Assembly (NCBI GenBank): GCA_037833965.1
Contig: AP031351.1
Span: forward strand, 7,514,501-7,578,500
From: Marchantia polymorpha subsp. ruderalis
Taxonomy: Eukaryota > Streptophyta > Marchantiopsida > Marchantiales > Marchantiaceae
Direction of reading: 5' to 3'
DNA length: 64,000 nucleotides
Made by a program: the position numbers and the translations under genes. The notes beneath the pieces were generated by a model. It did not search any database. It was not told the DNA's origin and saw only the letters and a program-made list of their open reading frames with translations. Shown in pieces: positions 1 to 35,990 of this stretch (within the stretch, counting starts at the first letter, position 1; every line of letters starts with the position of its first letter).

Positions 1-376
1 ATACGAGGAGAGAAATTATCTATGAAGATAGCAGATTTGGTTATCCTGTAAACCTTCACAAGATTTTCTTTTTTAAACTTAGATAACTGGGTGCTTCATG
101 TCGTGATGGATGACACCTCAAAATGTTGAAAATGGTCCCAGTAAAAAATTACATTTCAAACTAGAAAACCTCACCATAACAAGTTTCGACATACGAGTAT
201 AACAGCGGAATCAGTTGCCAGAATTCAAAATAGGGCTAATAATATAGAAGAGTCATGATCGATATATATACTGAGAATAGTGACCATGTGTTGTCTGTGA
301 CATTAGTAATGCTATTCTATTTCAAAATTGCAACGACTGGTTGAACATGCCGAATGAGTGGAAAAGAGATAGGAAC
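1..376. other. Intron sequence at the left edge
   Basis: Follows the last placed exon in the direction of transcription. A possible acceptor lies near 45 (GGTTTACAG|), but the sequence after it meets a stop in the required phase, so I did not call an exon. No other feature seen. Confidence 0.4.
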
Positions 377-553
377 CTGACAGAGTAGAAGTACGCGCCG
401 GCCTTTTACGTGTAAATGTGAGACCATCCGTTGCAACGTCTCAAACTTCCCGCACAACTGAATCCCGGCATCTACAAGACTTTGTTCCGGTTTGAGATTG
501 AGAAGCAGATTTTCTTGCAGAGTTGGATCAACGAGAAATGGATGGTTGCACAC
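377..553 (-). CDS. Exon with SNF2 signature VCNHPFL and start of helicase C lobe
   Basis: The 59 codons lie between acceptor CAATTGCAG| and donor TGTCAG|GTTCCT, phase 0. It begins VCNHPFLVDPTLQE, the highly conserved SNF2-family block. It ends with GKFETLQRMVSHLHVKGRR, which matches the 'SGKL-x-LL-x-LL-x-L-x-GHR' entry of the helicase C domain, then VLLLCQ in place of VLIFSQ. The remaining helicase C motifs and any MOM1-specific C-terminal region must lie outside the window. Confidence 0.92.
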
Positions 554-3500
554 CTGCAATTGTTGGAAAAAGCTTATGAGGTGTATGGAAATTCAGACCT
601 AGTGAACTTCCCAGCTTTTGTACATGTACCACTAGAGTAAGGGGAAATTTTCAAGTGCTTATTGACAAAGAGTGACCATCTGTCACATCCGTGAGATCAT
701 AGCACATACAGAATTTGTAACTTTACAACCGTAAAAGAAACAGAGTGGACCTCCACGTGACCTTCAGAACGGAAGAGGAAGCAAAATGCGGAAGAGTTTC
801 AAGATAAAACTGGACCAAAATATAAAGAAAGCCAAAGATTAAACCTGATATTTTCAAGGGGTGGTTAGCTCAACAGTTGTGACCCATAAGAGTATGACAT
901 AGTCAAGCTCTGTAACTCGGAGAAAAGTATTATTCAGATCATCTCTTGAACAGGATAAACAAAATTACTATAATATCATTTGAATCGTCTCACATTCCTA
1001 ACAAGGTTAAAGAAAAGGTCCATCACCTCCACGATCAAAATCACGATCAAACGTAGTTGTGAAAGCCACACATATTAGACACAATACATACAAGAAAGCA
1101 GCAATCTGCTGTCTCGCTGAGAAAGTAAACAAAAGCTGGCAAGGAGTAAGAAAAATTAACTGTGAGGGTTACCATTAGGGTTCGGAAGTATACATGTATA
1201 ATACATTGATTATACAAATTATACAGGTTATACATGTATAGTATAAGTACATTATACACTGTCCAAAAAAACTTTATTCCTGTTCATTTTCTTCTCCAGA
1301 AGCATCTACATCATGGTCCTTTGTTCCTTTGAAAAAAGGAACAATGAACTAATCCTATGTATGCTTCCTTATGATTTAGGCATTTAATCTCTGGATCTTC
1401 CTGCTGCCTACATAATTCTCCTCTCTCCGTTCTTGAGAGTCATCATGACTCAGTCATGCTCTAGGCATCTGGCTGTCTGGCTAGGAAAACCAACCTTCCC
1501 TGTTCGGAAGTATACATGTATAATACATTTCATTATACAAATTATACATGTATAAAGTGTGTAATTTATTATACATGTATAGGTATAGGGCAAACCCTAG
1601 TTACCATGAAAGAACAAGAAAGAGATCTGCTCGTTTAGACTCTTTTCATGCTCGATAGAAGTCCAGAGGCTGGAAACAGCTAGGCAGAATATCTATATCG
1701 TGGCATTCTTCTCGCATTGTCGTCTGCAAACTCAATCCATGAACGAATGACGCATCTACTCTGTAAGTAAAATTGTGATGTATGGAAAATACGAAAGTAT
1801 GTTAAGAACCGCCATCGTTTCCTCTTCCCAGAACCCAAGTCTTTCTCCGGAAGGAGATGTTAGAGATACAGCGTATGGAACCTACCTTCACTACGATGAG
1901 AGGTTGTTGCGAACAGCACGTCTCGGGATTTATAGTCAGGCAAATGTACTCGGGCTACTAGCCATCATAAAGACTCCATCCAGATGCGGATCCCGGAAAC
2001 CGTCACAACCAAGTGAATCGATTGATGGCTTTCCCGTTTACTGTCCCTTTCCCTCCATGTGACAAGTTGCTGGCCTTTTGCATGACACAGCGACTGAACC
2101 TCTAAATACGGAGCCTTTTCGCTCTGTATTCGTTCACGAGTTCTTTTCAGTTGTATCAAATCCGATTTTCTTCCGCTTTAATACAATGAAATCACCTACA
2201 AAGAATGTTCTGAGCCACTGCAAGTCACTTTCTTCTGCACTGTTTTCTCAGTTGCGATCAACCACCACTCTTCGAAAAGCTACTGGTGAGCTTAGCAACG
2301 GAGTGTCCTAATTTTGACATATTCCCATGAAAACTTCAACATATAGAATTCCGTCCAAAATAGAATTTGGTGGATTCTTATACAAATCGCGTATGTGTAA
2401 TGAAACCAGCTGCTTAAAGTCTATGTGGTCATAATGCCACAATTGTTTTCACTTCGCTTTATATGTGATCCGTTTTATATGGTCAGACTAGCCTGAATAT
2501 CGTCATTGAATATAGACAAGATTCAAAATATCGGTGATAGCTAGAAATCTCCCAGTTCAATGTCAAAAGCAATAAGCTGTTCGATGGTGAAGACGGTGCA
2601 TTCTTCCGTGATAAATATTCAAGCTATACCTGGCACACTTTCATGGAGGCATGGATACGAAAGGGAAAAAAACGAAAGAAAACAGCAAGGATGCTATTCA
2701 AAATTTCCAGCTTCTTCCTAGTAGCCAAGGTCCTCGTCCGCCCTGGCCACCTTGTGACGATCAATCACAGTTGTTAACCAAACGAAGCAAAAACGGCAAT
2801 GGATTGGCTTAGGTTAGCAGATACTAGTAAGTTGGAACAACGGCTGTAAATGCAGAGGGGCACCCAGACCCAGCACGTGTTTTGTCTACTGAACTTGATA
2901 GAGATGTCATGACCATGATAGTCACTTATTCCGTAAGGAATGACAGACTGTACCAAAAAGTTCAAAGAAAAGATGAATATCAATGCTCGTACCACTCTAG
3001 TCGTCTTCAGAGTTATGAATGTGGTTGGTCCGGTGCTGCACACCACAGAAGGGTGGAGCGGATTTGAAAGTGCTGGTAACTGACATTCCTAAAACGTCAA
3101 AAGAGTTACAGAGTGAAGAGAAATTAACTTACCATACGGTCACAATATTCACGATATCTACTGCAGAGAAGAGAGAAGAAAGAGATGGCAAATTCATCAT
3201 CACACTGAGAAAAGATAAGACACTAAATGCCTTTTGATATTACAGTTTTGCCATCTAGAAAGGGACCGCCTATATAAAGATGGTGATGGTAAATGAATCG
3301 GATTCCAGGCGCTAAAAAGTACAGTTACAGTGAAAGGTTTGAGAAACACGGACATAGAACCACATCAACACTAGTTAAGAAAAATGGATGAATTTGTTCT
3401 ATGGCGTGTTAGGGACTAGTTAAGAAGAATTACGCCTGGTAGACGCAGTCATAGCTTCATCAACCCGTACAGTCAATATAATCGCTATTAGCAAGAAAAC

Positions 3501-6500
3501 ACTACTATACTCCAATATTGATGTAAGAAAATAGACAGGATTCGCCTAGACATGATAGAGGTAAATCCTCTTGTGCCCCACGGCGGCATTTCTACAACTA
3601 ACGGCTCAAGATATGTTGAAAATTTAAATGCTTTTGAATATTTTGCTTACTACAGACGAGAACACGAACAAGGGGTAAGGTCAACAACTCGAGAGGAGTC
3701 TCGAGTTGTGTCCAGACTAATCTCTTCACTTTCAAGTAGTCCTCTTTTTTCCCATACTATTTGGAAAGGTTCAATGTTAATCCTAGGCCAACTATAACAT
3801 TATTATTTGGGGTTCAACATTGTCCGTTAAAAAATGTTCGCGACCGGATGAGACTTCTTTGTATTACTGAGCCTTCTTTCTGTAATGCAAAAAGGAAATC
3901 CCACTGGCAAATAAATCATATTTCATCTAGTTTTTGGATTATAAAATGCAGCAATATGAGATTTGGACTAGAGCTAAAGAACGACTTTTTCCTTCTTCCT
4001 TAAGCCCAGTTAAGTTGGACGGCTTGTTGACTAGCGGAAAAAGTTTCTCTCATGGTTTTGAAAGCATCTGGTCCAAAATGATCATTACAAAAGAACGTCA
4101 GAAGAACTCTATGCACAAAAAAGGAATTGGATGCCAAAGCGGATAACTTCCGTACGTTGGCACAAGCGAAAGATCTGTACTAAAAATGTGCACTGTGTAG
4201 CCACCCCGAAGTAAGGGTTTAGGGTTTCAAATAGTTTTGTCTGCGAGAGGCGGAGATCGCGACGAGAGCAGCTTCGTACTTGACGAAAGGGAAAGATTGC
4301 TGCTACTGATTGAATGCAAAAGACTCACACGTACAGATGGCTCTACAAGTATGAAGTAACAACATAGAAAATGTCGGGATTGCTACAGTTGGTAGTCATA
4401 GTGCCATTAAAACCACATTAAGGCGTATCCTCCAATCAGGTTATGAAGTAAACTGTCCCTTTAGGACGCATGTCTAAACGTGGGTCTTCTAGGGTTCACG
4501 AATAATTCGAGGTCGTCGATGGACGATATCCGGTCAAAATCATCCAGGAAAAGTTAGTAAATCATTCCACTCCCTTTGCATCCTCCCAACTCATCTTCTT
4601 CTACTACTCAAGGATCTCCTTATACGAGCACCGTCTAGAAAGGGCACGGAATCCACAGGTTGCAGGCTAGACAGGCGCTTACTAATCAGTACAAAATCTT
4701 CAAAGACTTCGGGCAGAAGAGCAGCTCTAGAGCCAATTCAGATGAGACAAGGAAGTTATTGGTTGGAAGAAATTGAGATATAAATTTGCCACCTCTGCCC
4801 CATCTTGATGACTTTCTCGTGGTGTCAACGGTGGAGCTATCATCCTCTTTCACTTAAATGATCCACACTGGTGTAGAAATTTGCTGCTCTCGTGCAAAGA
4901 CCTGGAAGCAGCAAGAACATGCACTCGAGTGGTCGAATGCCTGATATGGTTGCTCAACTTAAGTGACGATACGTACTAACGCGGCCAATTCGCGTAAGCT
5001 TTCCTCCGCGGTGAAACTTGAATTTGACCCAACACCTTGTTCGGAGATTATCCCTCCTATCTACCATATTAAAACGGATTACAACAGTAACGGATTCAAA
5101 CGCCAATCTCTATCATGTTCACACAGTCTCCCACCGTACACAGTAAGTCATATTTAACATTCGTACTGGCTTGGTTTCCAAAGCTGAGACCAGCACAGCT
5201 ATACATCTGATCGCACACTGAGAAGCTTGTGAACTTGTCAAACGAAGACGAGTGCTGCTTTTGTTGTTGTTCCCCATTGCATCGAGCACCTTCAAACGCA
5301 GAGGTGTCTTGGTCCAGAATGTGTTAGAAATTTATGACCTTGCATGCTCATAACACATGTACAGCCGCTCACCATGGAGTACCCAGGTTCGGTCTCCTCC
5401 AGGAAAATCGAGGGGCTTGTCCCAGGATTCTAGAAACGTCAGCAACAGAAATGGTTAAGTGATCTTCAATAAGAATGAAAAGTACACAATTCTCTAGAAT
5501 ATTGGACGCAGACAACCAACCTGGTAATATCATACAAGGTCTACGAGTTGAAAGAAAAGGAAAAAGAAAAACAATAGTATATGCCTTTCAAGGCCTGTAC
5601 ACGGTAGGCCACGCACCCCAGCTGACCAGCTGAGAAAATAAGATCAGTGATTAAGAACACAAGAAGAGGGATGGATTGGAGGAGGGAAATTGAGGCCTAT
5701 TTGGCATCGGTGTTATTTTTCATTTAAACCTTTATCATAAGTTCTGCAAGACACATGGTGGGAACTGCCAATATCGTATGATTTTCGGTTATCCACATAA
5801 TGCAAAAAGTCAAAATCTTGTAAACAAGAACTATCAAACCTACTTTTGAAGAACATGCATTCAGCAGCAAAAAGCATTCCAAGTCGTTTCTACTGCAGTT
5901 TAACAGACTGCAACAACTGAAAAAAAAAAAAAACTTGTAGATGTTATCAGAAAGATACTGAGTGAAATGGTAGGAACTTCAAACTGACGATAAGTTTAAA
6001 CCCTTTTACACTGACATGTAATTAGAAATAACGACAAGATGTATGAAATGACATTTCAACTTAAATTGTAGGAAAACACTACACAACATATACACTCTGA
6101 TGTATATACATAGGTAGATGTTTCAGAAAAAGTAGAAATAAACAAGAAATAAACACAACTGAACTTGTATTTTCCCACACTCTAACAACCCCTCAGCCTG
6201 ATTTTCTATATCTAACAAAGAAAAACGCAAACATAACAAAATGCTCGACATGCAAACAAATATTAAGAGAGAAACGTATACGACTTCCAAGGGAGACGGA
6301 TTCAACTGTGATCGAAACCAGCAGCAGATCCCAAGTAGGATAATAAAACGAGGAGGTTAAGTAATAGCTACACTCACAATAGTAACGATGGGAAAAACGA
6401 AACACATTGTTTTAATGTACTATCAACACATCAGAAAACACCGGTCCATGCAGTTAACATTCGACGATGAACATGTCAGCACGAGGACAGCGGATTTTCG

Positions 6501-9500
6501 ACATAACTGCATCCGTGTTACTACCGACTCAATATATGAACAGTTTCTCCAAATGTCTCATCCATAGATAATGCGCAAGAGAAACGCATAACCTGATTAG
6601 ACTTCATAAAAATGGCCTACAAGGAACAATATAGGTGTATATATAAGCGTGTAACACCGCTCCACACCACACTAAACACACACATATTTCCATTGATGTC
6701 ACATCCACGAGCAAGTAAGCAAAAATGAAATTTTGAGATAAAGGGAAGCACCACGTCTAAACGTATGCAGCAGAAGAACATAGAATTACGTTATGGAAGA
6801 ACTTACATTTCTAAGGGTTGCGATAAGCCCATGTATAGAAGACGAAGTCTGATCAGAGCGCATACGGCCAAAGTACAGCAGGCTGTAATGTTTGGTCAAT
6901 TCAGTGCAGTAAAGATGTACTTGAGTGGGTGTCATCTGCCCTGCGGCCCAATGCTCTTTGAACTCCAGGCGAATTGTTTCATCAGACCTGCTTTCTCCGA
7001 CCATTTTCTCCCCAAGCTTGCCTTTCAAAAACGTAAGTTGAGTCTCCTCATCCCATTCCCCCAGCTGCTTTTGTAATTCTGACTCAAGACCGTGGTTCTC
7101 TGGCTCCAAATAGACCACAAACTGCTGCAATTCCCAAACAGAACACTGCGACAGAGAGACAATTCACAGGTTAGTTCAGATTTTTACATCAATCCTATTT
7201 TCAATTGGAGAAGGAAAAACTAGTCAAATTAGTCATTTCTAAGCACAACCCTTACAACCCTTGAGTCTTCATTCACAGGATTTGTCAAAAGCGTAAATGG
7301 CAATTGCATCGTCGCAGGGAGCGGGCCGATCAGCTCACAACCTTGGAAAAGTCATTCAGAAGAATTAATCGATGTGGTGCAATAAACTGCATATGGCGAT
7401 ACGACTTCGTTACCCTCGAACGGTGGCCTTCATCCAAGACAACTGCTTCCCATTCAAACTTCATCAAATGATCATGATCCTGTGATGCAAGTAACATGAT
7501 GTTAAGATCAATGAGTTAAAATGATATGATTCAGAAACGTTCTTATTGTAAATTAGACAGATAGGAAAACCGACACGAAGTAACAGCAAACATCTTGAAA
7601 TTTGATTTTTCTTGTACGATCTTAAGCTACATAGTGTGCAACGCAGTGCGGGAAGTAACTCACAATGTTGGCAACGTCGAAAGTTGTCAACACTATTTGG
7701 AATTTGATTGGTTTCTCAGATGGATTGAGCTCATGACGTTGAATCACGGATCTCCCGCTCGTACTTCCAGTATATACAACTGTGTATACGTGCTCAGCAG
7801 ATCGAAGTAACTCTGATTCCCACATCTGACACCCATTCAACGGCACTATGACAAGTATCGGTCTGAACGATCCATACTCCTCTATCAAGGAGAGAAGAAA
7901 AGCTACAGCAGTTCTTGTTCTCTCCTGTTTCAACGCCCAATACATCAGATTAGAACACGTCCACAATATGAAGGTAAAATACCTACTGAAGCATATTAAC
8001 ACTAAAGAATATCATCCCGGTTTACTAGCATAGCTTACCAAATAGGTATAAGTTTAAATTTTCCAGCATTCGACCTAAGCTAGGAACTGTCCAAGTGTTC
8101 TTTACAATCAACATGAAGTAACTGATCACCATTTGGAAAAACACGTGATCAAAAGCAAGGGCTTAACAGTAAAGGAGAACCAAGAGCACAGACCCGGGAT
8201 GTAACTTGTAAGCATACGCTATTTACACACCTGATCACTTTCATCCACCATCAACGTGTTATGATGGTGATACCAGCGTTCGCGTAGACCGTTTAGTTCT
8301 TCCAACTGGTGAGTACTCAATTTACACCCTTGGAACCAATCTGGCTGCTTGGCAAGAGGCTTGAAATCAGCCTCACGTAACCTCATAACCTGTGTGAGAT
8401 GAGCCCATATAACAGGTCTTAGGAAACCCCGTGAATGGCGATATAACACTCACGAAAGAAGATTAAAAGGAAAGATCTGATCAAATTTTTTTTAAACTCT
8501 TCATCTAAAGTGCCCGTTGTGATAAGCAACATTAGCTGGATCCTTGCGTGCTGAATCAAATGCAACAGACCTCCTCAATACGAGTTGGATGCGACCGCCG
8601 CCTCGCACCTTCACACCATCTGTCATAATTGCTTTCTAGTCTTTTAGAAATTTCAACATCCAAAAGGCCTGACTGAGCTTGCTCCCATGAGCAATGCTCA
8701 TAACCCAGATCTTGCCACTTGACAAACCACTCCAGGCCAGCATCCATGCCTAAAAAGCCTCTGCCTCTCCCTCCACCCGGACGACGAGGGGGTGCATTGA
8801 GCCTTCTTAAAAGAAACCGTTGAGGCACTTGCCAGGTTGACTGCCACTTGATGCGGCCCTTAATTATTGCAATACACCAAGACAATCAATGCACATTCAG
8901 AAAGATTGTTTAGAAGAAGAGTGTGAGTGGTGCGAATAACACAAAGCACTTGGGATGTTGAGCTCCTCCTCCAAAAGGAGGACCTTGAAATTCATTGTCA
9001 TTGAAGACCAGATATATATGACACCACAAAGACAAAAGTACGAGACACTTTGAAGCCGAATAACGCTACCACCGATATAAGAATGGATGGACTATTTCTA
9101 ATTGTGTAATAAAGCATCATTACTGGCACTAGAATCGCAATCGAACCCCAACGGTAAGTGCAAGGAAGATGAAGTGCACTCTGTACTCAGACCCTATAGA
9201 TTAGAACGAAATGAAGATAACAATATACTGTATATACCTGATTCGGATTATCCGACTCCAGCCTTTTCTTAAAAGTCTCAAGCATTTTCGGAGCAGCCTT
9301 CTTGAGCTCGGTTTCGCAAACCCAAGCATTGTGTATATGAGAAAGGTTTTTATACTTAACAAAATACTGCTTGTCGCAACCTCCGCAGGGACCCTCTGCA
9401 GATTGGGACACCACAGCGGACGCTGCTTCGGTCGAGGGAACCACATCAGCCTTACGTTTCTCTAACTGTCTACGAGACTCAAGTTCCGACTGCTTCCGCC

Positions 9501-12500
9501 TGGTTAGTCGTTGAGGTATAGATGTACTTGAGCTTGGGGAGTCTTCCACCATCCCAGGTCCCTTATCCTGAGCTTTCATCGTGAGATATGAAACGTCCTC
9601 TACTTCGTGTAGCATCCCAGAGAGCTCCCCTAATACATGCCTATTCTGATCAAGTACGACACCAGGAGAACCATTGCACGAATGGCAAATGCAATCTCGA
9701 ACTTCCCAAATACTTTCGACGGCTTTGAGACTCGCATTAACTCCAAACGAGAGACGCTTCTGGGTACAAGTAGGGCAGTACCACTTGCCCTCAGGAACCT
9801 CCTTCATATTTGGATCAGCACATTCCAGGTGGTATGTAACTTTACAACCGCTCGCATCACAGCACCTATCGAGAAGCAGCAGGAACTCAACAAACGTCAA
9901 TGGCATAAAAAGAGCAAGCAGAAAGTGTCAACATGTCCATCAAGACACACTTTAGCTTCAATCCGAATTCCCTACCGGTTTCAGGATATGAGTACATTTC
10001 AAGTCAAAAAGTCTGAAAATAAACGATTTCCACGTTGACAGGAACGTTACTATATACGCTGCACGTACAAACGATAAATGAAACGAAAAGATCACGACTA
10101 TACAATACAGTTAGGAACAAAATGAGCTTCTGAAAGTGATATGCGGAACGTTCTTTACAAAGCAGGATATTAAAACACAGAACAAGAAGAAAGTACACAA
10201 AGAAGTGGTACCGAATGAGCAGCATCGAATAATCGACACGGCAATCTTAGTTCAAATGTTTCACTGCATTTGAATACTATAATCAACATATGTACCCAGT
10301 CATTGTCATCTCAACCCGGCTGTTCAATTTGTCATTATATTTATACAGGATTCAAATTTCAGGAGCTTTGTTGGTCATGAGTACGCTTACAGTAGTATTC
10401 CTCCCAAAAGGCAGGCCTCACAGAAACTGTTGTGGTCATCAACCTCTGATGCTTCTTCAGAATGATCATCGTCAACATCTTCAATTGTCAGATCGCCCAC
10501 AGCATGGGTGTCTGTAGTCTGGTCATGGAGTGCTACTCCTCCAGCCAAAGACCTGTAGACCTCCCGATCCTCGTCATTGTCGGCTGTTCGAACAACGTTT
10601 TGTTCGAGGATAGAGAATTCATCTGATTCTTCCTCTTCATTAAAAGCTGAATATCTATCATCGACGAAGGAGTTCTTGGTCCGGGATCTGATCCTGCTTG
10701 GAGCATCAATAACGGAGAACATATCCTATTTAAGAGATTGATACTCATACCGATATTCACGTTCAGGAAGAAGCATATTGGTCGTAATCCTCTCTAGTCT
10801 AATGTGGACAGACATCCACATGCAAATAGGTTTGGCAGCACACCAAATTACAAAGGGTCTGTACAGAATCATCACATTACCTAAAATCTGCTAAGAGGAT
10901 TCCCTGGGCACTGTCAGACAGGTAAACTTCATACAGACCCAAGCCCAAAATTCACTTTCAGGATGCAAAGAATGACTCCAAATGGAGCTTCCCAGCAAAG
11001 CGATTGCTTTGGATCACGACGCTCCAAAACTTGAGTTCTCTGGTCTGGATTCTCTAAGACTCGAACCTACCAACCTTTGCAGCCATTCCGTAATGGTCAT
11101 GGCTCAAATGGATCATACTTATCGGTCACAGTGCACAGTTCATACACGTCTCGTCTTGCTTCTAGACATATTGGTCAAAACAAAGGAGCTCGGGCATTTC
11201 TCTAAAGTTTTCAACTGTAGTGGTATTTTTGAAAGACTGCCACCAGGCGCTTCTCACTGGGACCAGGCAAAATTCAGATCTGGAGATCTTCATTTCTATT
11301 AATTCTTATTGTATAAAGATCACCTTCTTTCAAATGAGGTAGAGTGTCCACTTAGAACTAAGTTAGCAGTATGGAACAGCCAGTCCGACTCCAAAATGGT
11401 AGCCAGTGACCAACTACTTTCGAAGCAGTACATATAATTCGGGCTGTTTACTCAGTGGATGCCTTAATGTGCAAAGTGTCTGCACTGGATCGAGCAGAGG
11501 CTGAGGATAACTCGAACCCAAAAACTATGAAGAAAATGATAAGCCAAAAAGAAAGCAGATGGCAAGAGAGCCCGGAGAGTGCGAAGAAACGGGAGAACCA
11601 TCGGATATAGCGGGAGAAACGATGTGCTGCACTCGTAACGGCATATATAGATACAATATGAAGTGCGATTAGTTTTTAAAAAAAATGTATATAATCGACG
11701 GCAGTGGCTTGACATGCAAGTGGGCCGGAACTATATATCGACTAAAAGAGAAGAGAGAAGGAGATCTGAAGAGTCGATTTGAAAAGTTGAAATAACCGTG
11801 CGTCTAAAGAATACAATATAAAAATCGGAAGGAAAACTCAGGTGCAGCAAAACGAGAATAATGACTTACAACAAGCTCCTCGCGTGTATGTGTAGGATGG
11901 ATTGGAACATACCCGAAGCTGAGTAACCAGAATAAACATCAGCTCAGCATAAGACAGAGGCTAGAGTACTATTATCAGAGTAGCAAAGTGTAAATCTGGG
12001 GTCAATTATTCCCAGTCAAAAAGGCTGTTGCGCCTGCTAGATGTCAAGAAGTAACTACTCCAGAGAAACGATCCACTTGGGCCTTAATCACGCGTCTTCT
12101 AGATTTATGATGTTGTCTAGAATGTAGCTCTCGTCGACAACCGAGAGCACATGTTGATATTTTCCACCAAGAATTTGATCGCAGGGTTAAATAGACCTGG
12201 ATATCAAGGTTTGACAGATAAAAGACAAAATGGGAAACTGCGCAGTCCATCAAACTGGTTGAATTCGCAAGAGTGCCAAGGATAGATACCCCTGGAATAT
12301 TTTTTGACGAGCTGTACATGAGGTCCTCAAATTCAAGAACAGCGGGAACGTAGATATCGTCCACGCATCGTCGAACATTGATGAATCTAACGACGAGATT
12401 CCAGGACCAAGCGTAACAGGTCAACGAAGTCGAGTTCGTACTTGTCATCCTCCATTTTTGAGACCTGCAAGGTCGATGTTCGTGTACAAGTTGTAAAGCC

Positions 12501-18500: not shown

Positions 18501-21500
18501 GTATTCACTCATACCAACAAGCGTAACTTGGAGCTCTCGAACCAAAGTGAATCCGTAATCACTCATACCAACTCTCTGTATGTGAGGTATTCCCGTTCAC
18601 GCGCCATAAAAAAGGCATCACATCTCTGATGTCATTGTGCGTACCTATCCTCTGGATCCCATACTGGAATGAGTCAAGTGGATCCGTTCTGGATCTAGAG
18701 TAGTACCACAGTCACACGTGAGCAATGAGCAATGAAGAAGTGTAGAGAGGTGGACCAAACCCAAACAAAAACTCATTGCTGTTATAAAAGTAAGTGGTGA
18801 GAAAATTTAGAAACGGATCAATTCTAAAATGGTTGGAATAGATCGAGACACCGAACCCAGAGAGCGAACGTTTGAGGCAAAGAGCAAGCGGAAACATGCA
18901 GTACAAAAGTATCATTTTAGACATACTTTACAGTAAATATTGTGTACAACAGTCTACATGAAATACACAAGGAGATTGACAATGCAAGCGGGACGTAATA
19001 GTGTATGGAAACAAGCGAGGGAAAAGGCAGTAGGTAAAACGAAGTGAGTGAGGAAGAAGTGAGATGAAAGACGGAAATAGAAGGTAGAGGGCAAAAAGAG
19101 TGGACGTTCTTGAAATGGCACGAGTCCATCCACAATTACTCAAGACCATTAGAATCTAGGAGACCAGATCATTAATTGCAAAATGCTCCGTCAAGGAGGT
19201 GTATTCTTATGACTAGTAAAGTTGTAACTCAGGTTAGAGAATCGTTTAAGTGTGAAGAAACTCTGAATTTCCAGGCTTGAAGTTACCTGGCAAGTTAAAG
19301 AAAGTCTGAATTGAGAACGGTTTAGCAAATACTCATAAGATCTGAAACGTCTGTCAAAAAGAGAAGGGCTGTGGTTATTACACTTGATTTGTTATCACTA
19401 CCCTTAAACTTGGTACACCTACTTCTGACTCAAAATTAAATGATTGTGATCACTTCGTATCATGATGTACGAGGCCACAAACTTTGAGTTGTTGGGTCAA
19501 GCTCCATTTAACAGTAAAATCGAGCACAACTATTCCATAAACGATAACGAGAGCAGGGAAAGTGAATAAGTATAAGAGTTTCACTAGGCAGATAAGAATG
19601 CTTGTAAGAAATGCGCGAAGAAGAATATACATGATCAGACCATGGATTAGATTTGACTTGCATCGGACCTGGCATACTGGGCGGTCTTTTGTCTTGTCAG
19701 ATTGATACAATGCAGGAGCACTAATTTTTGTTCTCTCAATAGAGTTTCTAGTCATCGGCTTCGAAATATCACGGTCTTCCTTCTCTTCGTTGCGTCCCAC
19801 GTCCATATTTTCGGCGACCTTAGCTTCTTCACTCACCCCAATCAGCTGGTTACGGTCATCTTCAGTAGGACCCGAACCCCGCTTCTCCTTCCTGCTGTTG
19901 TCATTTTCTTCAATCCCATTGGGATGGTCTACCGCTTCGATACCGAATATGCCAGTCTTCTTCTTCTTCTTCTTCTTCCTTGAAGCCCTAGTGCTCTCAC
20001 CGTCTAAACCTCCGTCCCTGCTGTTGTCATTTTTTTCAAGTGTTTTCTGAGTTTCTTCTAACAAATTCCTGTCATCAATCAAAGCCATCCCATCGGGATG
20101 GTCTACCGCTTCGATACCGAATATGCCAGTCTTCTTCTTCTTCTTCTTCCTTGAAGCCCTAGTGCTCTCACCGTCTAAACCTCCATCAATGCTATTGTCA
20201 TTCTCTTCGGGTATTTTCTGAGTTTCTTCGGACAAATTCCTGTCATCAATCAAAGCCATCTCATTGGGATGGTCTACCGCTTCGATACCGAGTATGCCAG
20301 TCTTCTTCTTCTTCTTCTTCTTCTTCCTTGAAGCCCTAGTGCTCTCACCGTCTAAACCTCCATCCCTACTGATGTCATCAATGACTTGTGAGCCTGCACC
20401 TGCTTGTCCACCTACTCCATACTTCTCAGAGGCCATTGTTTTGTCACCAGCCTGGTGACTTTCTCCCGCTAAATGCGCAAGTGAGTGAACAATCGCCCTG
20501 CTTTCATCCTCGTCAACTGATGCTTGTTGCCCTGCGACTGTGTCCTTATCAGCCTTCTTGGTAGAAGCTACAGACTTCTCAACTTTGCCGTCAATGGACG
20601 AGCCTCTACATTTTGTTCTTGGAATACTTAACTCCTCGGACTGCAAAAGAGGAACCAACGTCGAATCATCTTCTCGGGGGCAGTCCTTTCCCGTGTCCAC
20701 ACCAGGATTCTTACTTCCTGCTTTCGAGACACAGAAAACTTCAGCGGGAACACTTAGGGAAGGCTTTGAGGGAGAAATTTCTCGCAGTTTCTCTGCACTT
20801 CTGGTCGTTCTCCTCTCAGATAACTTCTCGGCAGTTTCAAGGTCTGCATCTTTGTTTTCTGTGAGTTTCATAGTTACTGTTAATTTGTCCAACTTCTTAG
20901 CCGTATCTTTACCTTTACGGGGTGTTGATGACATATCCGACTCCTTGCTTGCATGATTGTCTAAATGTGCAGAAGAGATCACTTCTGTCTCAATATTGAC
21001 GGGTACTCTATGATCAGATCTCTTCGCTTTCTTTTTGAAATGGAGCACTTTCTCTGAGTTTGAAGTTTCCTCAACTCCCGAAGCTGCTGTCACGACTTCA
21101 TTGTCCACAAGCAACCGTCCGACTGCGTCTGTTTCTTTGGGCAAAATTCTACTGGCCGTTCGAAGTCGCCTCCCAACGTTACCCTGAATAATTATCTCTC
21201 TCATTAATCCATCATCTCGTGAACGTGACTCTGGTCTCTCTCTTAACGTAAGCTTCCTGTCTAAAGCTCTCTGAGCTTGCTCCAGTTCTCGGTATCTCCG
21301 TTTCCTACTCTCTTCATCGTCATATTCAGTAGTCTCCTTGCTGTCCCTCCCTTTCTTCTTCTTTGTCTCTTTCGGATAGTCTCGCTGCTCCTTGTCAGTT
21401 ATGTCAACTGTAGCTCCATTCTTGACTGGGCTTTGCTTCACTAAGTGTCGCTTCTTCCCTGTGTCCGGTGCTTTTGCACGTACACCTTCTCCGTCGTCGA

Positions 21501-23572
21501 GATCTAGGAGCACAAAATTAATACTCAAGGAATCAGAAACTGCAAAATACTTGAAAGCACCTGTTGGTCAGAGACGATACCCTCCTATTGATTTCAATAT
21601 TCAAGACGGGGCGCTGTCTGACGATGTCCGAACCGATTCTCTGAGTAGGCTCAGGCTCGATCAAACCCGATTCAGACCAGAAAAAAATCACGAATGTAAA
21701 CTCTGGGATCAATTCCCACTTTATTATCTGAGTTCGAAGAGAACGTGATTATAGAGACAGAAACCGGGAAGAGGATACCAGGAAGAATGTGGAGAGGTGA
21801 GAGTTTAAGGCCATAAACACAATCAATACCTGTCTCCGATGTTTTGACCTGTGTCATGTTCTTACCTTTTGAACCCTTCCTAGAACGTGGGAACTGTCTG
21901 CACTAGGCGGGCTTGAAGCAGTCAGAAAAAATAGATCCTTATATAGTGTTTCCCCCCTCTTGAAACGAGCAGTGAGACGTGTATTGTTAATTTCTGTCTT
22001 CAGAAGGGCTGAGGATGGCTAAGCCAAGTCATTGCACATACTGCAAATAACAATCACAAACTGCTGTTCCTTATGAAGGAGGAAACGATAGCCATCCCAG
22101 TATAGTTGATTTCGAATTTCTAGAGGTCTTGTGTGATGGTCATTGTGGGAGGACTTCCCCTGTAATGTGGTATATGGACTAAAAACAACAGGTACACAAG
22201 CCTTTCCCATGTACATCGACCGGGCTTTGCTGGAAGGTTTTCAATTTGGGTAAGTCGTTTGAAATAGTAACCCCAGGGTAAGACCTTTACTGTGCTGAAT
22301 GGGAACTTACGAATCGAAAGGAGGTGGTGGTTAACTGAAAACCTAAAAGACTCCTGAGTTGAACTTTGATACGTAAGTCTCAAGGAAAAGGTGATAATAT
22401 ATAGATAGATGTGAATCGACTTAGAACTATTGATGGGCAAGTTGTCGATACATGTAACAATTTCCTCACGGACCTAAGAAAACGAAACATCTCAGAACCG
22501 AAAATAGATACTGGATTATAGGCAGAGCCTTCAGTGATACTACATTCGCGGCAGTATACTAGAAAGGGCACCATCATAACATGATGCGGCAGAGAGGAGG
22601 AAAGAGCCGAGGCACAGCCATCGCAACAGATGAACATTGTGCATACCAAAACTTCAGTAATTCATCTAATGTACCCGTATTCAGGACGTCCCAGCAATTG
22701 GCCACCAGGGTGCAAAACCTTCAAGCCATCACAAATGATGTGTTTGTCGTACTTGAGATTCAGTTGGCTCATGTCTCGGGCGAAGGTGAAGACTTATAGG
22801 CGTGTTCATTGTATACAAGAAGGGAGTGAAAACCTCATGAAGAGGACACATAAACGGACATGAAAATCCTAGCGACAGCTATTTGCCCTTTGCTCAGCAC
22901 AGCAAACAGCTTTTGAGACGTCTTCCATGACCAGCTACCATTCCAACGGGACTGGATTCGTACCTTCCACTGCCGCTTCTTTCCTTCTGTCTCTCTTCTC
23001 ATTCCCAAGGCTGCCTCTCATTGGAGATTCGCTGGGGGAAATTTGTGGTATGACTGCCATCTTAGCTCCAGCTTTGTTGGCGGTTAATTCCTTTCGAAAT
23101 CTTCGTGCATCAAGGCTCTTAACCTTCATCTCGGAGACGCCTCCAGGTCCAGGACCCGGACCCGAGCTTTCAAAGTGAGGTGAGGTGGCAGGTTTATTCT
23201 GTTCAGGAACAAGATCCCTTGATTGGTGATGCCAGTTGTCTCCGAGCCGACTGCTTGGCCTCGCTCTCAATTTCCTTCTAGGAACAGAAAAAGCCTGCAT
23301 AACATGGGCGTCAAAGTTCGTTTAAAATCAATCTGTACCTCCTTTCAAGTCTCCTCTACCTGGAAAAAGAGTCTAAATTCTCGACAGTGATGGTTGAGCA
23401 TCCGTACCTTCTCATCGTCGGAGCTGTCTATTTTGACATCCTCATCTTCGTCGCTCCCCTGCCAGCCTGAAAGGATCAAATTTTCAGCCTGACTCCTCGA
23501 TTCTGCTCTGGAAGCTCGATTGGGCCTTTGGGCCATCTTCTTGGCGGCATCGTTCTGGCATGATTCATACAT
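377..23572 (-). CDS. CHD3/MOM1-like chromatin protein, multi-exon gene, 3' end outside window
   Basis: This is the overall span of one minus-strand gene, or at least its C-terminal two-thirds plus a probable N-terminal part. Twelve exons with GT-AG borders were placed by hand. From 10,725 down to 377 the eight exons total 2,325 nt (775 codons) and agree in phase at every junction. The order is PHD finger, chromodomain-like segment, chromodomain, SNF2 helicase-like core. PHD plus double chromodomain plus SNF2 is the CHD3 (PICKLE, Mi-2) layout. The decayed ATPase motifs resemble MOM1, a plant silencing protein regarded as CHD3-derived. The product should act in the nucleus on chromatin. The N-terminal exons (19,669-23,572) also agree among themselves in phase. 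Joining them to the PHD part through the exon at 13,853-14,098 leaves phase conflicts on both sides, so exons are missing or these are two genes. No stop codon is reached; helicase C-terminal motifs would lie left of position 377. Confidence 0.7.
1176..1599. mobile_element. hAT-like MITE, 424 bp, with 8-bp target duplication
   Basis: The ends are inverted copies beginning TAGGGTT and including TATACATGTATAAT. The element is flanked on both sides by the same 8 bases, GTTACCAT (1,168-1,175 and 1,600-1,607). TAGGG ends with 8-bp duplications fit the hAT superfamily. There is no room for a transposase, so it is non-autonomous. It sits in the large intron of the chromatin gene. Confidence 0.8.
3685..3708. 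repeat. Perfect 10-bp hairpin in intron
   Basis: CAACTCGAGA and its reverse complement are separated by four bases (GGAG). It lies in the large intron; role unknown. Confidence 0.6.
6807..7145 (-). CDS. Exon with SNF2 lobe 1 end / insertion helices
   Basis: The 113 codons lie between acceptor TCTGTCGCAG| and the near-consensus donor AAT|GTAAGT, phase 0. It encodes mostly helical, charged sequence (CSVWELQQFVVYLEPENHG, LFE-like EFKEHWAAGQMTPTQ) and ends HGLIATLRN. This joins across a 6.25-kb intron to VCNHPFL, reconstituting the SNF2 'LRxVCNHPxL' signature. That exact join is strong evidence that no exon lies between. Confidence 0.9.
7342..7479 (-). CDS. Exon with motif II (DEGH) and eroded motif III
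   Basis: The 46 codons lie between acceptor GCATCACAG| and donor TCCAAG|GTTGTG, phase 0. FEWEAVVLDEGHRSR is the motif II strand with DEGH instead of DEAH. APHRLILLNDFSK occupies the place of motif III (RL-LL-TGTP-x-QN), whose TGTP is gone. Reading past the donor quickly meets a stop, supporting the splice site. These changes together argue against ATP hydrolysis. Confidence 0.9.
7664..7924 (-). CDS. Exon with SNF2 lobe 1, motif Ia region
   Basis: The 87 codons lie between acceptor TTGAAACAG| and the strong donor ATT|GTGAGT, phase 0. ERTRTAVAFLLSLIEEYG follows directly on the broken Walker A segment and matches the helix after motif I (TIQ-x-IAFL in active enzymes). RPILVIVPLNGCQMWESEL equals the motif Ia strand and helix (P-x-LIV-x-P-L-S-x-W-x-x-E). 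IKFQIVLTTFDVAN matches the 'VLTTYE' strand. The fold seems kept although catalytic residues are not. Confidence 0.92.
8231..8389 (-). CDS. Exon entering the SNF2 core (motif Q/I region, degenerate)
   Basis: The 53 codons lie between acceptor CTCACACAG| and donor GATCAG|GTGTGT, phase 0 on both sides. The text KLSTHQLEELNGLRERWY corresponds to the L-x2-YQ-L-x-GLNWL entry of SNF2 proteins. HHHNTLMVDESDQ then replaces the usual ILADEMGLGKT. The Walker A lysine and the GKT are absent, as in MOM1-type proteins. Placement by phase and order is firm. Confidence 0.88.
8571..8858 (-). CDS. Exon with second chromodomain
   Basis: The 96 codons lie between acceptor AATTAAG|GGC and donor GAGGAG|GTCTGT, both phase 0. 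After a basic segment (PPRRPGGGRGRG) comes GLEWFVKWQDLGYEHCSWE, matching the chromodomain 2 consensus of CHD3/PICKLE (aromatic residues, VKW, then CSWE). The chromodomain helix follows (ISKRLESNYDRW), then a basic tail. In CHD remodellers the tandem chromodomains gate the ATPase and contact nucleosomes. Confidence 0.9.
9238..9865 (-). CDS. Exon with rest of PHD finger and first chromodomain-like segment
   Basis: The acceptor CTCGATAG| restores the split codon, giving ILLCCDASGCKVTYHLEC. Together with the previous exon this completes a C4-H-C3 PHD zinc finger (CEAC, C, C, H, C, WYCPTC). About 120 residues of polar linker follow (SSSTSIPQRLTRRKQSELES). The exon ends with QYFVKYKNLSHIHNAWVCE, the Y/F-x-V-K-(Y/W) to W core of a CHD chromodomain 1, and a helix (ELKKAAPKMLETFKKR). 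Donor AATCAG|GTATAT, phase 0; 628 nt. PHD fingers of this family usually read the histone H3 tail; which mark is bound cannot be seen here. Confidence 0.9.
10391..10725 (-). CDS. Acidic exon ending in the first half of a PHD finger
   Basis: The acceptor is CTTAAATAG| and the donor CTACT|GTAAGC (phase 2). The 111 codons begin DMFSVIDAPSRIRSRTKNSF and become strongly acidic (FNEEEESDEFS; TIEDVDDDHSEEASEVDD). They end in NSFCEACLLGGILL, the first zinc-ligand pair (C-x2-C) of a PHD finger. The second half of the finger is at the start of the next exon and joins exactly in phase. Acidic regions before PHD fingers are usual in CHD3 proteins. Confidence 0.8.
10726..13852. other. Intron-sized gap, possibly with an undetected exon
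   Basis: Lies between the linker exon and the acidic/PHD exon. Their phases do not match, so at least one small exon may be hidden here. A minus-strand frame at 12,044-12,448 contains the protein-like stretch PAVLEFEDLMYSSSKNIPG, but its splice sites could not be fitted. A hairpin with an 11-bp stem (AGCAAGATCGA) is at 13,024-13,055. Confidence 0.35.
13853..14098 (-). CDS. Probable linker exon (acidic, S/Q-rich)
   Basis: The open segment starts after acceptor GTCTGCAG| and reads LLRPPSEGLAKPTGLGG, then an S/Q- and E/D-rich stretch ending SLSNVLSER before donor GAAAG|GTACTAG. Composition matches the other disordered parts of the large protein. The weak point is phase: it needs two bases from the exon before it and one from the exon after it. 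The placed neighbours offer phase 0 on both sides. Either extra small exons lie at 14.1-19.6 kb and 10.7-13.8 kb, or its borders differ. Confidence 0.4.
17317..17377. repeat. Perfect 20-bp inverted repeat with nested copies
   Basis: CCGGATTGGGTTTAAGTACC at 17,317-17,336 is exactly complementary to 17,358-17,377. The 21-nt spacer itself contains further CCAATCCGG copies. The motif GGATTGGGT thus occurs repeatedly on both strands within about 60 bases. It could be the remnant ends of a foldback element. Confidence 0.8.
17822..17866. repeat. Hairpin, 16-bp arms, one mismatch
   Basis: GTTATCTCTGCGTACC (17,822-17,837) faces GGTACGTAGAGATAAC (17,851-17,866). A diverged copy of the same hairpin, with similar loop text GCTTGAAAT, is at 18,046-18,090. 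Role unknown; likely foldback-element remains. Confidence 0.65.
18046..18090. repeat. Second copy of the GTTATCTCT hairpin
   Basis: Arms TTTATCTCTACGTAC and GGTACACAGAGATAAC share the loop motif GGCTTGAAAT with the hairpin about 225 bp to the left. The arms now mismatch at a few places, so this copy is more decayed. Confidence 0.55.
18462..18575. repeat. Two-copy tandem repeat of about 55 bp
   Basis: Two adjacent copies begin AAGCGTAACTTGG and end CACTCATACCAA, with substitutions between them. Non-coding. Confidence 0.6.
19669..21503 (-). CDS. Large third coding exon: charged, disordered, with poly-lysine repeats
   Basis: The 1,835-nt exon starts at acceptor GTGCTCCTAG| and continues the phase 1 codon of the previous exon (G|AT, then LDDGEGVRAKAPDTGKK). 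It encodes about 612 residues rich in K, E, D, R and S. Near the start there is a charged helical stretch with coiled-coil potential (RRYRELEQAQRALDRKL). The last third holds three copies of a lysine-run repeat. The chosen donor is TGCCAG|GTCCGA after PVCQ (phase 0); an alternative GT lies six bases upstream, also phase 0. If neither is used, the frame runs on to a stop at 19,450 and adds a hydrophobic tail. No catalytic domain is visible. Function is unknown, and the link to the PHD/SNF2 exons downstream is inferred. Confidence 0.6.
19890..20373 (-). repeat. In-frame minisatellite: three poly-lysine repeat units
   Basis: There are two full units of about 57-59 codons and one shortened unit. 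Each begins DGGLDGESTRASR, followed by an uninterrupted lysine run (about 6 to 8, differing between copies) and TGI(L/F)GIEAVDHP. The full units continue with an ALIDDRNL..ETQK..E.NDNS segment; the last unit has lost most of it. The lysine runs are AAG triplets (CTT on the + strand), so length change by slippage stays in frame. Such tracts can act as nuclear/nucleolar localisation or nucleic-acid-binding segments. Confidence 0.85.
21504..22963 (-). other. Intron between second and third coding exons
   Basis: Bounded by donor AAG|GTACGA and acceptor CTCCTAG|. The phase 1 codon is restored across it. I see no further gene or repeat inside. Confidence 0.5.
22964..23294 (-). CDS. Second coding exon (basic, proline/glycine-rich)
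   Basis: The acceptor TTATGCAG| joins in phase 0 to the previous exon. The donor GTGGAAG|GTACGA leaves phase 1, which fits the next exon. The 110 codons encode a basic segment (AFSVPRRKLRARPSSR), a short GPGPGPGG run and a lysine/arginine-rich part (SLDARRFRKELTANKAG). It has no recognisable fold and is probably a disordered region with nuclear-localisation-like clusters. Confidence 0.55.
23408..23572 (-). CDS. First coding exon of the large gene (disordered N-terminus)
   Basis: The exon has 55 codons and ends at a clear donor (AAG|GTACGG) in phase 0. Two in-frame ATGs exist. The outer one at 23,572 follows an in-frame stop four codons upstream. The inner one at 23,536 starts MAQRPNRASRAES and has the better context (A at -3, G at +4). 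I extend to the outer ATG, but the inner one may be used. The peptide is basic at first and then very acidic (GSDEDEDVKIDSSDDEK), as in nuclear disordered tails. No domain is recognised. Start assignment is moderate; coding nature is supported by correct splicing into the next exon. Confidence 0.55.
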
Positions 23573-25790: not shown

Positions 25791-28700
25791 CCTTAATTAC
25801 CAGAAATGCAGTACAGGTCCACCTATACTCTTGGTTTGTAACCAATTTTGGCAAAAGCACATCGGAAATTGCGAGGAACCTGACTTCTTTAGTTGTTCTA
25901 TATTTAGTGGAGTGGAGAATATAAGCTCAGCCAGTCATCGTACGGATGACAACTGGCATTTAACGATAGCTTAGCTATCTCTAATATCATGTGAATCTTT
26001 GGATCTATGGACGATGACATCCGACTTGATCGTCCATCTGATAAATATCATGGACCCATAGTAAATGGGTTGAAGACTTCATCATGGTGAAAGCTAATCT
26101 AATGTCAAGTAAATAAAGTGAAGATATGAGAAGATCCAATCTCATGAAGAAACTAAAAGAAAAGTCTTCATCCGATATGATCACAGCAGTTAATGTGTAC
26201 TACATCACTTAAGATATATGAGATTTTAAATTTCAATTATAGTATAGTAAAATGGTATCATATAAACTATTGTGATTATTTTTATAAATATAATTATATA
26301 TATTACTTCAATAAGTTACACATTAGGTTAAGAATACGTTTTATCATGATCAATTATCCAAGTAAAATTTTTATAGATTTTTAAATCCCATCCAGAATAT
26401 GTGAAAATTTCAATAAAGAGATGATATCTCAATGTAATATCACATGTGAATTTCATCCATTTTGAAGATCTGTTTGTCTTTAAAATTGTAATTCTAGCAC
26501 AAGTGATACATTCTCAGAACGCGTTATATGTATTAATTTTATAGTGGTTTTTTTTTCTTTCAAAGGTTAGTGGCAGAGTGGATAAAGAACGACTGAAGAT
26601 ACAAATGTAAATAATTGCAGACGATGTTGATGTGATTACGATTTTTGGTTAAAAACTATTTGTGATACTCTAAACAACATCTTGTGAGCAATCGTCATCC
26701 TACTCCGAGCAATGACAATTGCTTAGCGTATGATGAATACACGCATCGAAAGAAAGAGTTCTATATGTGATAAGCTCATAGTCCTAGGCAATTTTTGTTG
26801 GTTGTATTTTGAGTGCTTAAAAGTTTACACTAGTTGGCAATCTTGCATTGTGATCAAGAATACTGTTTCTATCATGTTCGTTCTGATTTTGGATTTGCTA
26901 TAAGAAAAGAAAAAAAGACAAGACACACAATTTGAAAACTAAAGCAAGATGCCAATCAGGTAGATTTGCACATGACATAATCTTGAGGCAGAAACCCAGT
27001 CTAAATATTTTATTTAACTTAAAAACCTGAGAAAATAGCAAACTTCTTAAAGAAAATAGTAAGAAATCTCTTTATATCTATAAAAGTCATAAAACTTTAT
27101 CTAAAACACAACAAAATAGTCGGCACAAAATGCAATATCTGAATCAATATCGGCTATTACAGTTATAAACGGCCACATGAATGAATCAAACAATCTTAAA
27201 GACAGATTGCTCTTAGATATATTGAGTAATAATATGTCGGTTGTTAGGTGAAAATATGATACTTCATGTGATCATGATATAAGATCCAAAGAAAAACAGA
27301 ATCCTGAGAATTTTTTTCACCTTCAATTTATTTTGAACCCAAATCCAATACATTCACATTAAAAAATGGTTCAACAAGTATCAAGCTCCATCCATCAACA
27401 ACATGTAAAATAGCAACATTCAACATTACTGCATTATCAAAAACAATAGCATTGATCAAAAAATGATATTGATAACAATATCAGAATCTTTTTTGAATAT
27501 CTGTTATTATCAGTTATATATTTGAAAAAAAAATTAACCCTGAATTATATAATTTCAAAGGTTTCAATTGTATATTTCTGTTTTAAGTAAATTATAACAG
27601 TCAAGATAAATCCAAGGTTCAAAATTTTGATTCTAGTATAAAAATCTAAAAAAAAATGTTAATTTTTATTTCTCAAATAATTCAATTCTAAAATAAATAA
27701 AGCGTAAATTATGTTTTGAGTAAATCAAAGATTTTATTTATTCAGGTTATTCAGTTATCTATTTAAAATACAAATAAAAAATCAAACTCACAAAAGCTCA
27801 AAGTGACATATTTGAGGAATTTCTTAGTAAATGTCATGTTTGTACAGAAACCAAAATGATGAACCAAGAATCATGAAAATTTGTTGTTTTATAATTGTTT
27901 CAGTCATAAAATTAATCAACAAATTGACCATGATTATCACAGTCACAATCAAGGTTATGTTCACATATTTGTTTAAACAAATTTATCTTTGTATGTGCTT
28001 TTTTAGTGCTTGACGTTAGTATGTATTGTGTTACTTGAAAATAAAATTAATATTAGCTATTTTCTTAATGCTTGGATTTTTTATTACTAATTTCCATGAC
28101 TAGTTAAAGTCAAGCTTGGATGATAAGGCCTTATATAATTTGATTTTTCCTTTACAGACAAGTATACTTCTTATGATCTACGAGTTTATACTTATAATTT
28201 AGACCAAGATTGAATGTAACTCCATCTTAGGGTATACTTTCAAGTGCAGCTTATAACTCAAGTTGGAATACTAAAGTTTTGACTTGATCATTAACATAAT
28301 ATACTACCATCTAAAACTGTATATAAGCATTAGAAGATGGGAATTGAGCAAACTAGCTTTTAGTACAAGAAGAAGAAGAAGAAGAATTGAAAAGATGGAG
28401 ATTGCCACATTAAATTCCTTCAAGATCTGCTTGAATTGCTTTAGAAGCAATAAACAAGCTTACAAAGGACATTAAGAAAATCAAAGACAATCTAGTAGCT
28501 TGTTTGAACTAAGTGGAAGACAAGTTCAAAGCTCGATCCATAAGAGAGTACAAAATTGAAAATTGCTGACTCTAGTAAATAAGTTAAGGATTGTTGTGTG
28601 TTTGATCTATGCAAGCTCCATAAAAGAAGCAATAATGATTTAGCTAGAAATGACTTAAACGCTAGCTGATGATAATTTGTGCTGATAGGACCAATTGCAT

Positions 28701-28870
28701 TGATATGATATCTAGTGACAGATTTTTGCTACATATAATTGATCTTTTTGAAAATCCTATACTAAAATTGGACTATGTGATCTCTAGGCTGAATTTCATT
28801 AAGGTTTACTTTAGATAATATTTTGATAATCCATTATAATTTCATAAGATTGGAAATTTTCAAGACAATT
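25791..28870. other. AT-rich gene-poor DNA
   Basis: Composition drops sharply in G+C near 25.8 kb. No gene is seen. A stretch near 27.89-27.96 kb (ATAAAATTAATCAACAAATTG) resembles stretches near 29.39 and 59.42 kb, suggesting dispersed repeat remains. An (AGA)n run is near 28.37 kb, just past this segment's repeat-like start. Confidence 0.5.
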
Positions 28871-28879
28871 CAGCAGACA

Positions 28880-29170
28880 ATTATTTCAATTGCCAAAGCC
28901 CAGCACACTATGTCTTCAACTGTCTAAAGGCTAGAAGGCAAGGTAAAGATGCTTCTACTCCTCTGTATAATGTTTGCAAGAAGGATTATATACAGTATTA
29001 AAATGTTACTATGTGCTGGCTGCTAAGTCACAAGTGCAACAAGAAGTTAACTTTGTTATCTCTAAAATTGGTGTCAAAGAAACTATAAAGCAAGTAACTC
29101 CCGAAGCTCAAATCAAAATTTTTAAGCATGTCTTGAACAACCAGGAATTTTTATGCATGAATACATAAAA
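28880..29170 (+). pseudogene. Retroelement gag relic with decayed zinc knuckle
   Basis: The + strand reads NYFNCQSPAHYVFNC, matching the last three ligands of a CCHC zinc knuckle (C-x4-H-x4-C). The first cysteine is replaced by tyrosine. A stop follows soon after. A further open frame to 29,168 (KSQVQQEVNFVISKIG) has no recognised domain. Probably a decayed gag of an LTR retrotransposon; family uncertain. Confidence 0.4.
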
Positions 29171-32100: not shown

Positions 32101-32420
32101 TGTTCTTGTAGATATAGCTAGATTGAGTCAAATCATTCATATATATATATATATAAAAGATATTTGTGTTTGCGTCTGATGTTAATCTAATTTTTTTTAT
32201 TGAATTATATATATAATATTAAATTTTGAACATTTAAAAACTTTAATTTTCAAAGCTTTAAATTGAATTGGAATTTTCTAAAAATATAATTCAATAAAAA
32301 TTTCAACATAATCATGATTTTTTTCAAAAATTCAAATTTCAAAAATTTCAAAAATTCAGTATTTAGTTAAGAAAATGAAATAAACTTGACATGGAACTTT
32401 TAACCTAAGATCGTAACAAC
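29171..32420. other. AT-rich DNA without recognisable genes
   Basis: No coding region seen. The 29.37-29.62 kb part resembles 59.40-59.64 kb (TAGCTAATTATGACTAA versus TAGCTAGTTATGACTAA), so it is probably part of a dispersed repeat. A short (AT)n run is near 32.14 kb. Confidence 0.5.
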
Positions 32421-32787
32421 TAGGGCCCGACTAGGGCCACACCCGCTTTTGCAACGGCCACACCCACTACGTACAAAAAACTAATTGCGCGTCAAAGCAC
32501 GCCTCCCCTCAAACCCAGCTGCTAAGCCGAGCTTGTCCGCGAGGCAGAGGAGAGCGTAGTCGATAGGCTTCAAGGGGCGCGGAGCCGCTGCGGCCGTCAC
32601 TGTCTCCCTCGTTGCTGCTGCTTGTACATCTTCTACCACTGCCGCCGGTACTGCCGTTTTATTGATCTATTTCGACTGCCATGCCTGCAGAAGTGCGCTT
32701 GGGTAGTAGCAAAAGCGGGCATGGGCATGGTAATTAGCGGGCCGGTGTGGCCGTAGCAAAAATGGATGTGGCCCTAGTCGGACCCTA
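32421..32787. mobile_element. GC-rich terminal-inverted-repeat element, 367 bp
   Basis: The left end starts TAGGGCCCGACTAGGGCCAC. The right end, read in reverse, starts TAGGGTCCGACTAGGGCCAC. Further inside, CTTTTGCAACGGCCACACC pairs with TTTTTGCTACGGCCACACC. The whole unit is GC-rich inside very AT-rich DNA. TAGGG ends suggest a non-autonomous hAT-like element. No clean 8-bp flanking duplication is visible (GTAACAAC left, CAAATTAT right), so it is old or rearranged. Confidence 0.7.
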
Positions 32788-35060: not shown

Positions 35061-35069
35061 CTATAATCT

Positions 35070-35985: not shown

Positions 35986-35990
35986 AAGTT

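Follow-up and report, generated by a model that had tools for sequence, protein, structure and literature searches.

The closest described relatives of the gene reported here are the MOM1 proteins of vascular plants. Caikovski 2008 (PMC2507757) describes poplar PtMOM1 as retaining a PHD finger, chromodomains and a mutated SNF2 region, gives Selaginella SmMOM1 the same layout and places the origin of MOM1 with the vascular plants, with CMM2 not found in Physcomitrella; Nishimura 2012 (PMC3276543) repeats this dating. In Arabidopsis, CMM2 is described as multimerising and as binding PIAL1 and PIAL2, which contact MORC6, and the SNF2 part of MOM1 as largely dispensable (PMC10338684). Here we analysed 64,000 nucleotides of the liverwort Marchantia polymorpha (Marchantiidae; G000:C2:7514501-7578500, hereafter the window), with genome searches covering the 241,466,482-base assembly of nine contigs, and identified what we hold, at a probability of roughly 0.93, to be the MOM1 gene of this species: a CHD3-derived gene that has lost its motor residues and most likely encodes a silencing scaffold.

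A complete MOM1 C-terminus in a liverwort protein

The gene lies on the minus strand and runs from window position 10722 to 6.46 kilobases (kb) left of the window, corresponding to C2:7508041-7525222; 40 kb of left flank was added to complete it. The model, read from the sequence, has 13 exons, and the spliced conceptual protein of 2559 amino acids is an open frame with 12 GT-AG introns and a single terminal stop. Its domains follow in the order PHD finger, two chromodomains, two-lobed SNF2 region, DUF1087 and MOM1 C-terminus. An earlier reading of the window by eye (the sequence-only reading) had linked the gene to MOM1 and proposed a look to the left for MOM1-type C-terminal motifs; exons 9-13 proved to carry the MOM1 domain, CMM2 and a CMM3-like end. 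The Pfam MOM1 profile PF25029 matches across exons 10 and 11 with 66.6 bits against a cut-off of 27 (E 2.4e-18; profile positions 26-125 of 127). This is its single match in the whole genome, which makes the gene the only MOM1 place found, and the MOM1-like domain of PF25029 is probably the CMM1 region.

Further towards the C-terminus, a query of 106 amino acids, comprising exon 12 and reaching back into exon 11, returned 3VEM as the best of 177,635 PDB sequences (E 0.072, a weak match taken alone). 3VEM is the crystal of Arabidopsis MOM1 CMM2 and the sole MOM1 sequence compared. Aligned semi-globally with 88 residues of 3VEM, the stretch scored 76. None of 20,000 shuffled versions exceeded 67; they comprised 5000 each of the full, heptad-phase, hendecad-phase and reversed kinds, and in every kind 0 of 5000 attained the observed score. 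It also supplies those windows of the protein that score best against 3VEM, and we take it as the CMM2 coiled coil. The protein ends in PEVIYLSDDD, of which VIYLSDDD resembles the CMM3 SUMO motif in place and sequence. Arabidopsis MOM1 is reported to have VVCLS at 1994-1998 of 2001 (PMC6084981), and the candidate VIYLS stands at the same distance from the protein end, as expected of a C-terminal CMM3. Given the protein's own composition, the chance of a CMM3-like end at this fixed place is about 7e-7, a value calculated after the motif had been seen. The MOM1 domain, CMM2 and the CMM3-like end together indicate a complete MOM1 and not a step towards one, which overturns the suggestion that the protein is an intermediate form.

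Gene structure

Exons 1-8 occupy window positions 10722..377 on the minus strand and, joined at GT-AG junctions, form a single open frame that is 775 codons long. The larger part of lobe 2 and the C-terminal region lie outside the window, 0.3 to 6.5 kb to its left. The range 377..10725 first assigned to the gene thus held real exons but fell short of the whole, covering about 60% of the span and 775 of 2559 codons. The ATG of exon 1 lies 3 nucleotides downstream of a possible splice acceptor. The parts of the gene, all on the minus strand, are as follows.

Exon 1, 10391..10722, minus strand: start ATG, acidic N-terminus and first part of the PHD finger; donor GTAAGC
Exon 2, 9238..9865, minus strand: remaining PHD finger sequence (PHD residues 101-144), followed by chromodomain 1 (residues 276-312)
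Exon 3, 8571..8858, minus strand: chromodomain 2 (LEWFVKWQDLGYEHCSWE, residues 362-379), the second Pfam Chromo stretch
Exon 4, 8231..8389, minus strand: Q-motif, with the first half of motif I in its ruined form (NTLMVDESDQ)
Exon 5, 7664..7924, minus strand: second half of motif I (ERTRTAVAFL) and motif Ia
Exon 6, 7339..7479, minus strand: motif II (VVLDEGHRSR) and, at the place of the lost motif III, LILLNDFSKV
Exon 7, 6807..7145, minus strand: remainder of SNF2 lobe 1
Intron 7, 554..6806, minus strand: 6253 nucleotides
Exon 8, 377..553, minus strand: VCNHPFLVDP..GKFETLQRMVSHLHVKGRRVLLLCQ, where lobe 2 begins (motif IV); its donor, GTTCCT, is weak
Intron 8, 1..376, minus strand: start of the intron within the window, continuing beyond its edge
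Exons 9-13, window -327 to -6459 (C2:7514173 down to 7508041), minus strand: motifs V and VI, DUF1087, PF25029, CMM2, CMM3 and stop

A decaying pseudogene might be suspected from the long branch of the protein in the tree described below, the 6.25-kb intron and the tandem 84-nucleotide repeats of exon 9. With 2559 codons uninterrupted by stop or frame break, and with the MOM1 domain and CMM3-like end intact, we give decay very little credence, and the gene is presumably expressed.

Exon 9 contains five near-identical in-frame tandem copies of 84 nucleotides, each encoding 28 amino acids (L009:8342-8758), which are probably a recent expansion; Arabidopsis MOM1 is described as carrying repeats of its own (PMC2507757). 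Intron 7 gave no Pfam match at E 0.1 in its three minus-strand frames.

The SNF2 motor has lost its ATPase motifs

The Walker A block reads NTLMVDESDQERTRTAVAFL and aligns ungapped to the CHD4 block ILADEMGLGKT, so that the GKT is absent, as first noted. Relative to the CHDs, GLGKT has become DQERT, TGTP has become NDFS (bearing out the reported disappearance of motif III) and, in exon 9, motifs V and VI are both broken (FILRKNTTGVSFQL; KVIYKVQ in place of RAHRIGQ). A block resembling DQER may also occur in other MOM1 proteins. We compared columns invariant among five other CHDs: human CHD4, human CHD1, yeast Chd1 and two proteins of the same genome that we take to be a CHR4-like CHD3 (C5:94001-103000) and a PICKLE-like CHD3 (G000:C6:31224001-31243000; L016, L017). 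The liverwort protein retains 59 of 99 such columns and, in a leave-one-out control, each of the five CHDs retains 99 of 108 to 122. In this alignment most of lobe 2 lies beyond the ends of the human CHD1 and yeast Chd1 rows, the CHD4 row contains an X-filled gap, and the exons of the PICKLE-like row were joined by eye. On lobe 2, Pfam Helicase_C scored 20.3, below its cut-off of 23.5.

An alternative exon restoring GKT or TGTP is unsupported: the introns at motif I (306 nucleotides) and motif III (193 nucleotides) contain no hidden GKT, TGTP or TGAP, and one stray GKT within intron 7 lies away from motif I. Motif II had been read correctly as DEGH but wrongly counted among the lesions, because three SNF2 genes elsewhere in the genome (L002, L003, L005) combine DEGH with an intact GKT, which shows it to be a normal motif II; we therefore rejected it as a sign of a dead motor. 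That intact motif II, together with the intact Q of the Q-motif, is what could be said for a remodeller that still works through an unusual ATPase site, a reading made highly improbable by substitutions at the lysine and glycines of the P-loop, at TGTP, in the core of motif V and at both arginines of motif VI. Active remodellers have an unbroken Walker A block, TGTP and the arginines of motif VI, none of which is preserved here, and with motifs I, III, V and VI broken the region has the degenerate state of the MOM1 SNF2. Residues required for ATP binding and hydrolysis are gone from the motor, which, judged by them, would lack ATPase activity.

Descent from CHD3 remodellers

The product of exons 1-8 matches the Pfam families SNF2-rel_dom (5.3e-23), Chromo (8.7e-14, two stretches) and PHD (2.1e-6) in CHD3 order within the 775-codon frame, in agreement with the layout originally described. 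Its closest PDB relative is CHD4 (196 bits), followed by CHD1 (135 bits). The chromodomain-SNF2 part alone lies slightly nearer CHD1 than CHD4 in the PDB search (134.1 versus 121.6 bits), so the CHD3 assignment rests on other evidence. DUF1087, 'CHD subfamily II', which marks the CHD3 group, matches in exon 9 with 26.7 bits against a Pfam cut-off of 22.8, completing the set of PHD finger, two chromodomains, SNF2 region and DUF1087 that characterizes CHD3 descent. Profile search and phylogeny, both proposed as checks by the sequence-only reading, point the same way: beside the PF25029 match, a tree of nine rows places the protein inside CHD3 with support 96/95. Grouping it with CHD1 is disfavoured at p 0.015 and grouping it with other SNF2 types at p 0.014; the latter result speaks against the concern that the protein might cluster with an unrelated SNF2 family.

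The long branch of the protein in this tree, which implies free change, and the slight CHD1 preference would suit a motor-less CHD3 paralogue that lost its motor independently and is unrelated to MOM1. This alternative is strongly contradicted by the 66.6-bit PF25029 match, CMM2 and the CMM3-like end, all in MOM1 order, and we consider it very unlikely. Several points nonetheless weigh against the identification as MOM1. The branch is very long (4.41); the likeness to CMM2 is remote, an 81-residue query from exon 12 having missed 3VEM in the PDB search and the longer query having reached only E 0.072; and the exon borders were deduced from sequence alone, with the weak GTTCCT donor at exon 8. 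In Arabidopsis, silencing is also described as not requiring the SUMO motif or the SNF2 part (PMC2507757 and PMC6084981), so their presence is no proof of function.

Within CHD3, the nearest tree row is the CHR4-like protein of M. polymorpha (91/81, not decisive), and MOM1 may have descended from the CHR4 type of CHD3 rather than from PICKLE. The PICKLE-like protein as sole sister of MOM1 was rejected (p 0.026), and a grouping of MOM1, the PICKLE-like protein and CHD4 gave p 0.126 and so stands as a possible alternative. A genome-wide search for DUF1087 at E 0.001 found only the MOM1-like gene and the C6 PICKLE-like gene (4 candidates scored), which argues against the CHR4 placing.

The intron 8230..7925 splits Walker A, and an intron of the C6 gene (about C6:31236045-31235896) lies at nearly the same codon; this shared intron may be inherited from CHD3. 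In the C6 gene motif I is intact and motif V reads STQAG-VGINLA. No exon for motif VI HRLGQ was found there between MARAH and VMIFRL, an unexplained gap that could be a missed micro-exon or a second weakened motor. Another stretch, L027, appears CHD1-like (among 11 stretches, by motif scan only).

A probable scaffold that keeps its chromatin readers

Two places in the liverwort genome match SP-RING, one presumably SIZ-like and one presumably PIAL-like; one of the two lies at C2:27405 kb. Two places match MORC S5. Together with the work on CMM2, PIAL and MORC in Arabidopsis, these matches suggest a scaffold that has kept its chromatin readers. By analogy with Arabidopsis, from which dimerisation, partner binding and silencing are carried over, the PHD finger and chromodomains of the liverwort MOM1 would contact chromatin, CMM2 would pair two MOM1 molecules and hold a PIAL-type SP-RING partner, and this partner would recruit MORC and the silencing machinery.

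Surroundings of the gene and the host genome

With Pfam at E 0.05, no match was found in 10.8-25.6 kb of the window (six frames) or in 45-56 kb (two plus-strand frames), and Rfam at gathering thresholds returned one tRNA in the window. Base composition pointed to no particular lineage. At 19453-21567, on the minus strand, a frame of 705 amino acids holds about 2.6 copies of a 57-residue unit with lysine runs; it has no Pfam match at E 0.05. Positions 28001-36000 form a very AT-rich block (25% GC) in which CpG stands at 0.26 of expectation in 28-32 kb and 0.71 in 32-36 kb, and CWG at 0.60 and 0.52; decayed methylated repeats might leave such a composition. Beyond the 3′ end of the gene, from -8.7 to -28 kb relative to the window (L009-L012), we saw by eye transposase-like, then copia-like and gypsy-like frames.

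Organelle RNA editing occurs in vascular plants, whose genomes would be expected to encode DYW proteins. The genome profile search gave 0 DYW matches and, since the same search gave none in control genomes either, this is supportive only; for PPR, 150 matches were scored of 727 candidates. RNA editing is not known to have been reported in complex thalloid liverworts (PMC5295000).

Origin of MOM1

A complete MOM1 in Marchantia would place the origin of the family earlier, in the last ancestor that liverworts and vascular plants share. We think it likely that a complete MOM1 with an already dead motor predates the liverwort/vascular split, at about the origin of land plants, in which case the absence reported for the moss Physcomitrella would be a loss. 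Publication of the PtMOM1 and SmMOM1 layout in 2008 means that retention of readers with loss of the motor was already known. The comparison with flowering plants made at the outset accordingly holds for the MOM1 link but not for its setting, the host being a liverwort and the layout already described; this suggests that what is new here is the liverwort host and the earlier date of origin. A bryophyte MOM1 was nowhere reported in the open-access literature searched; the gene may well already be named in automatic database annotation. How a remodeller turned into a scaffold can now be asked in a haploid model plant with one copy found and with PHD finger and chromodomains retained, where MOM1 could reveal what the readers do in a member that kept them.

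Comparison with known systems

The liverwort protein resembles the CHD3/Mi-2/PICKLE remodellers in its order of PHD finger, double chromodomain, SNF2 region and DUF1087, but lacks ATPase motifs I, III, V and VI and has an added MOM1 C-terminus. With the CHR4-like CHD3 of its own genome it has in common an FG...(Y/F)E block after motif IV, whereas ADEMGLGKT, TGTP and RAHRIGQ are intact only in the CHR4-like protein. With the MOM1 family (Arabidopsis MOM1, PtMOM1 and SmMOM1) it shares the MOM1 domain, CMM2, a C-terminal CMM3-type SUMO motif and a degenerate SNF2 region, and like PtMOM1 and SmMOM1 as described it keeps the PHD finger, chromodomains and both SNF2 lobes. It differs from Arabidopsis MOM1 in length (2559 versus 2001 amino acids), in its own 5 x 28-residue tandem repeat in exon 9 and in a CMM2 sequence far from that of Arabidopsis, and the PHD and chromodomain readers lost in Arabidopsis are still attached in the liverwort. 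It also differs from the family in standing outside the vascular plants to which MOM1 had been assigned.

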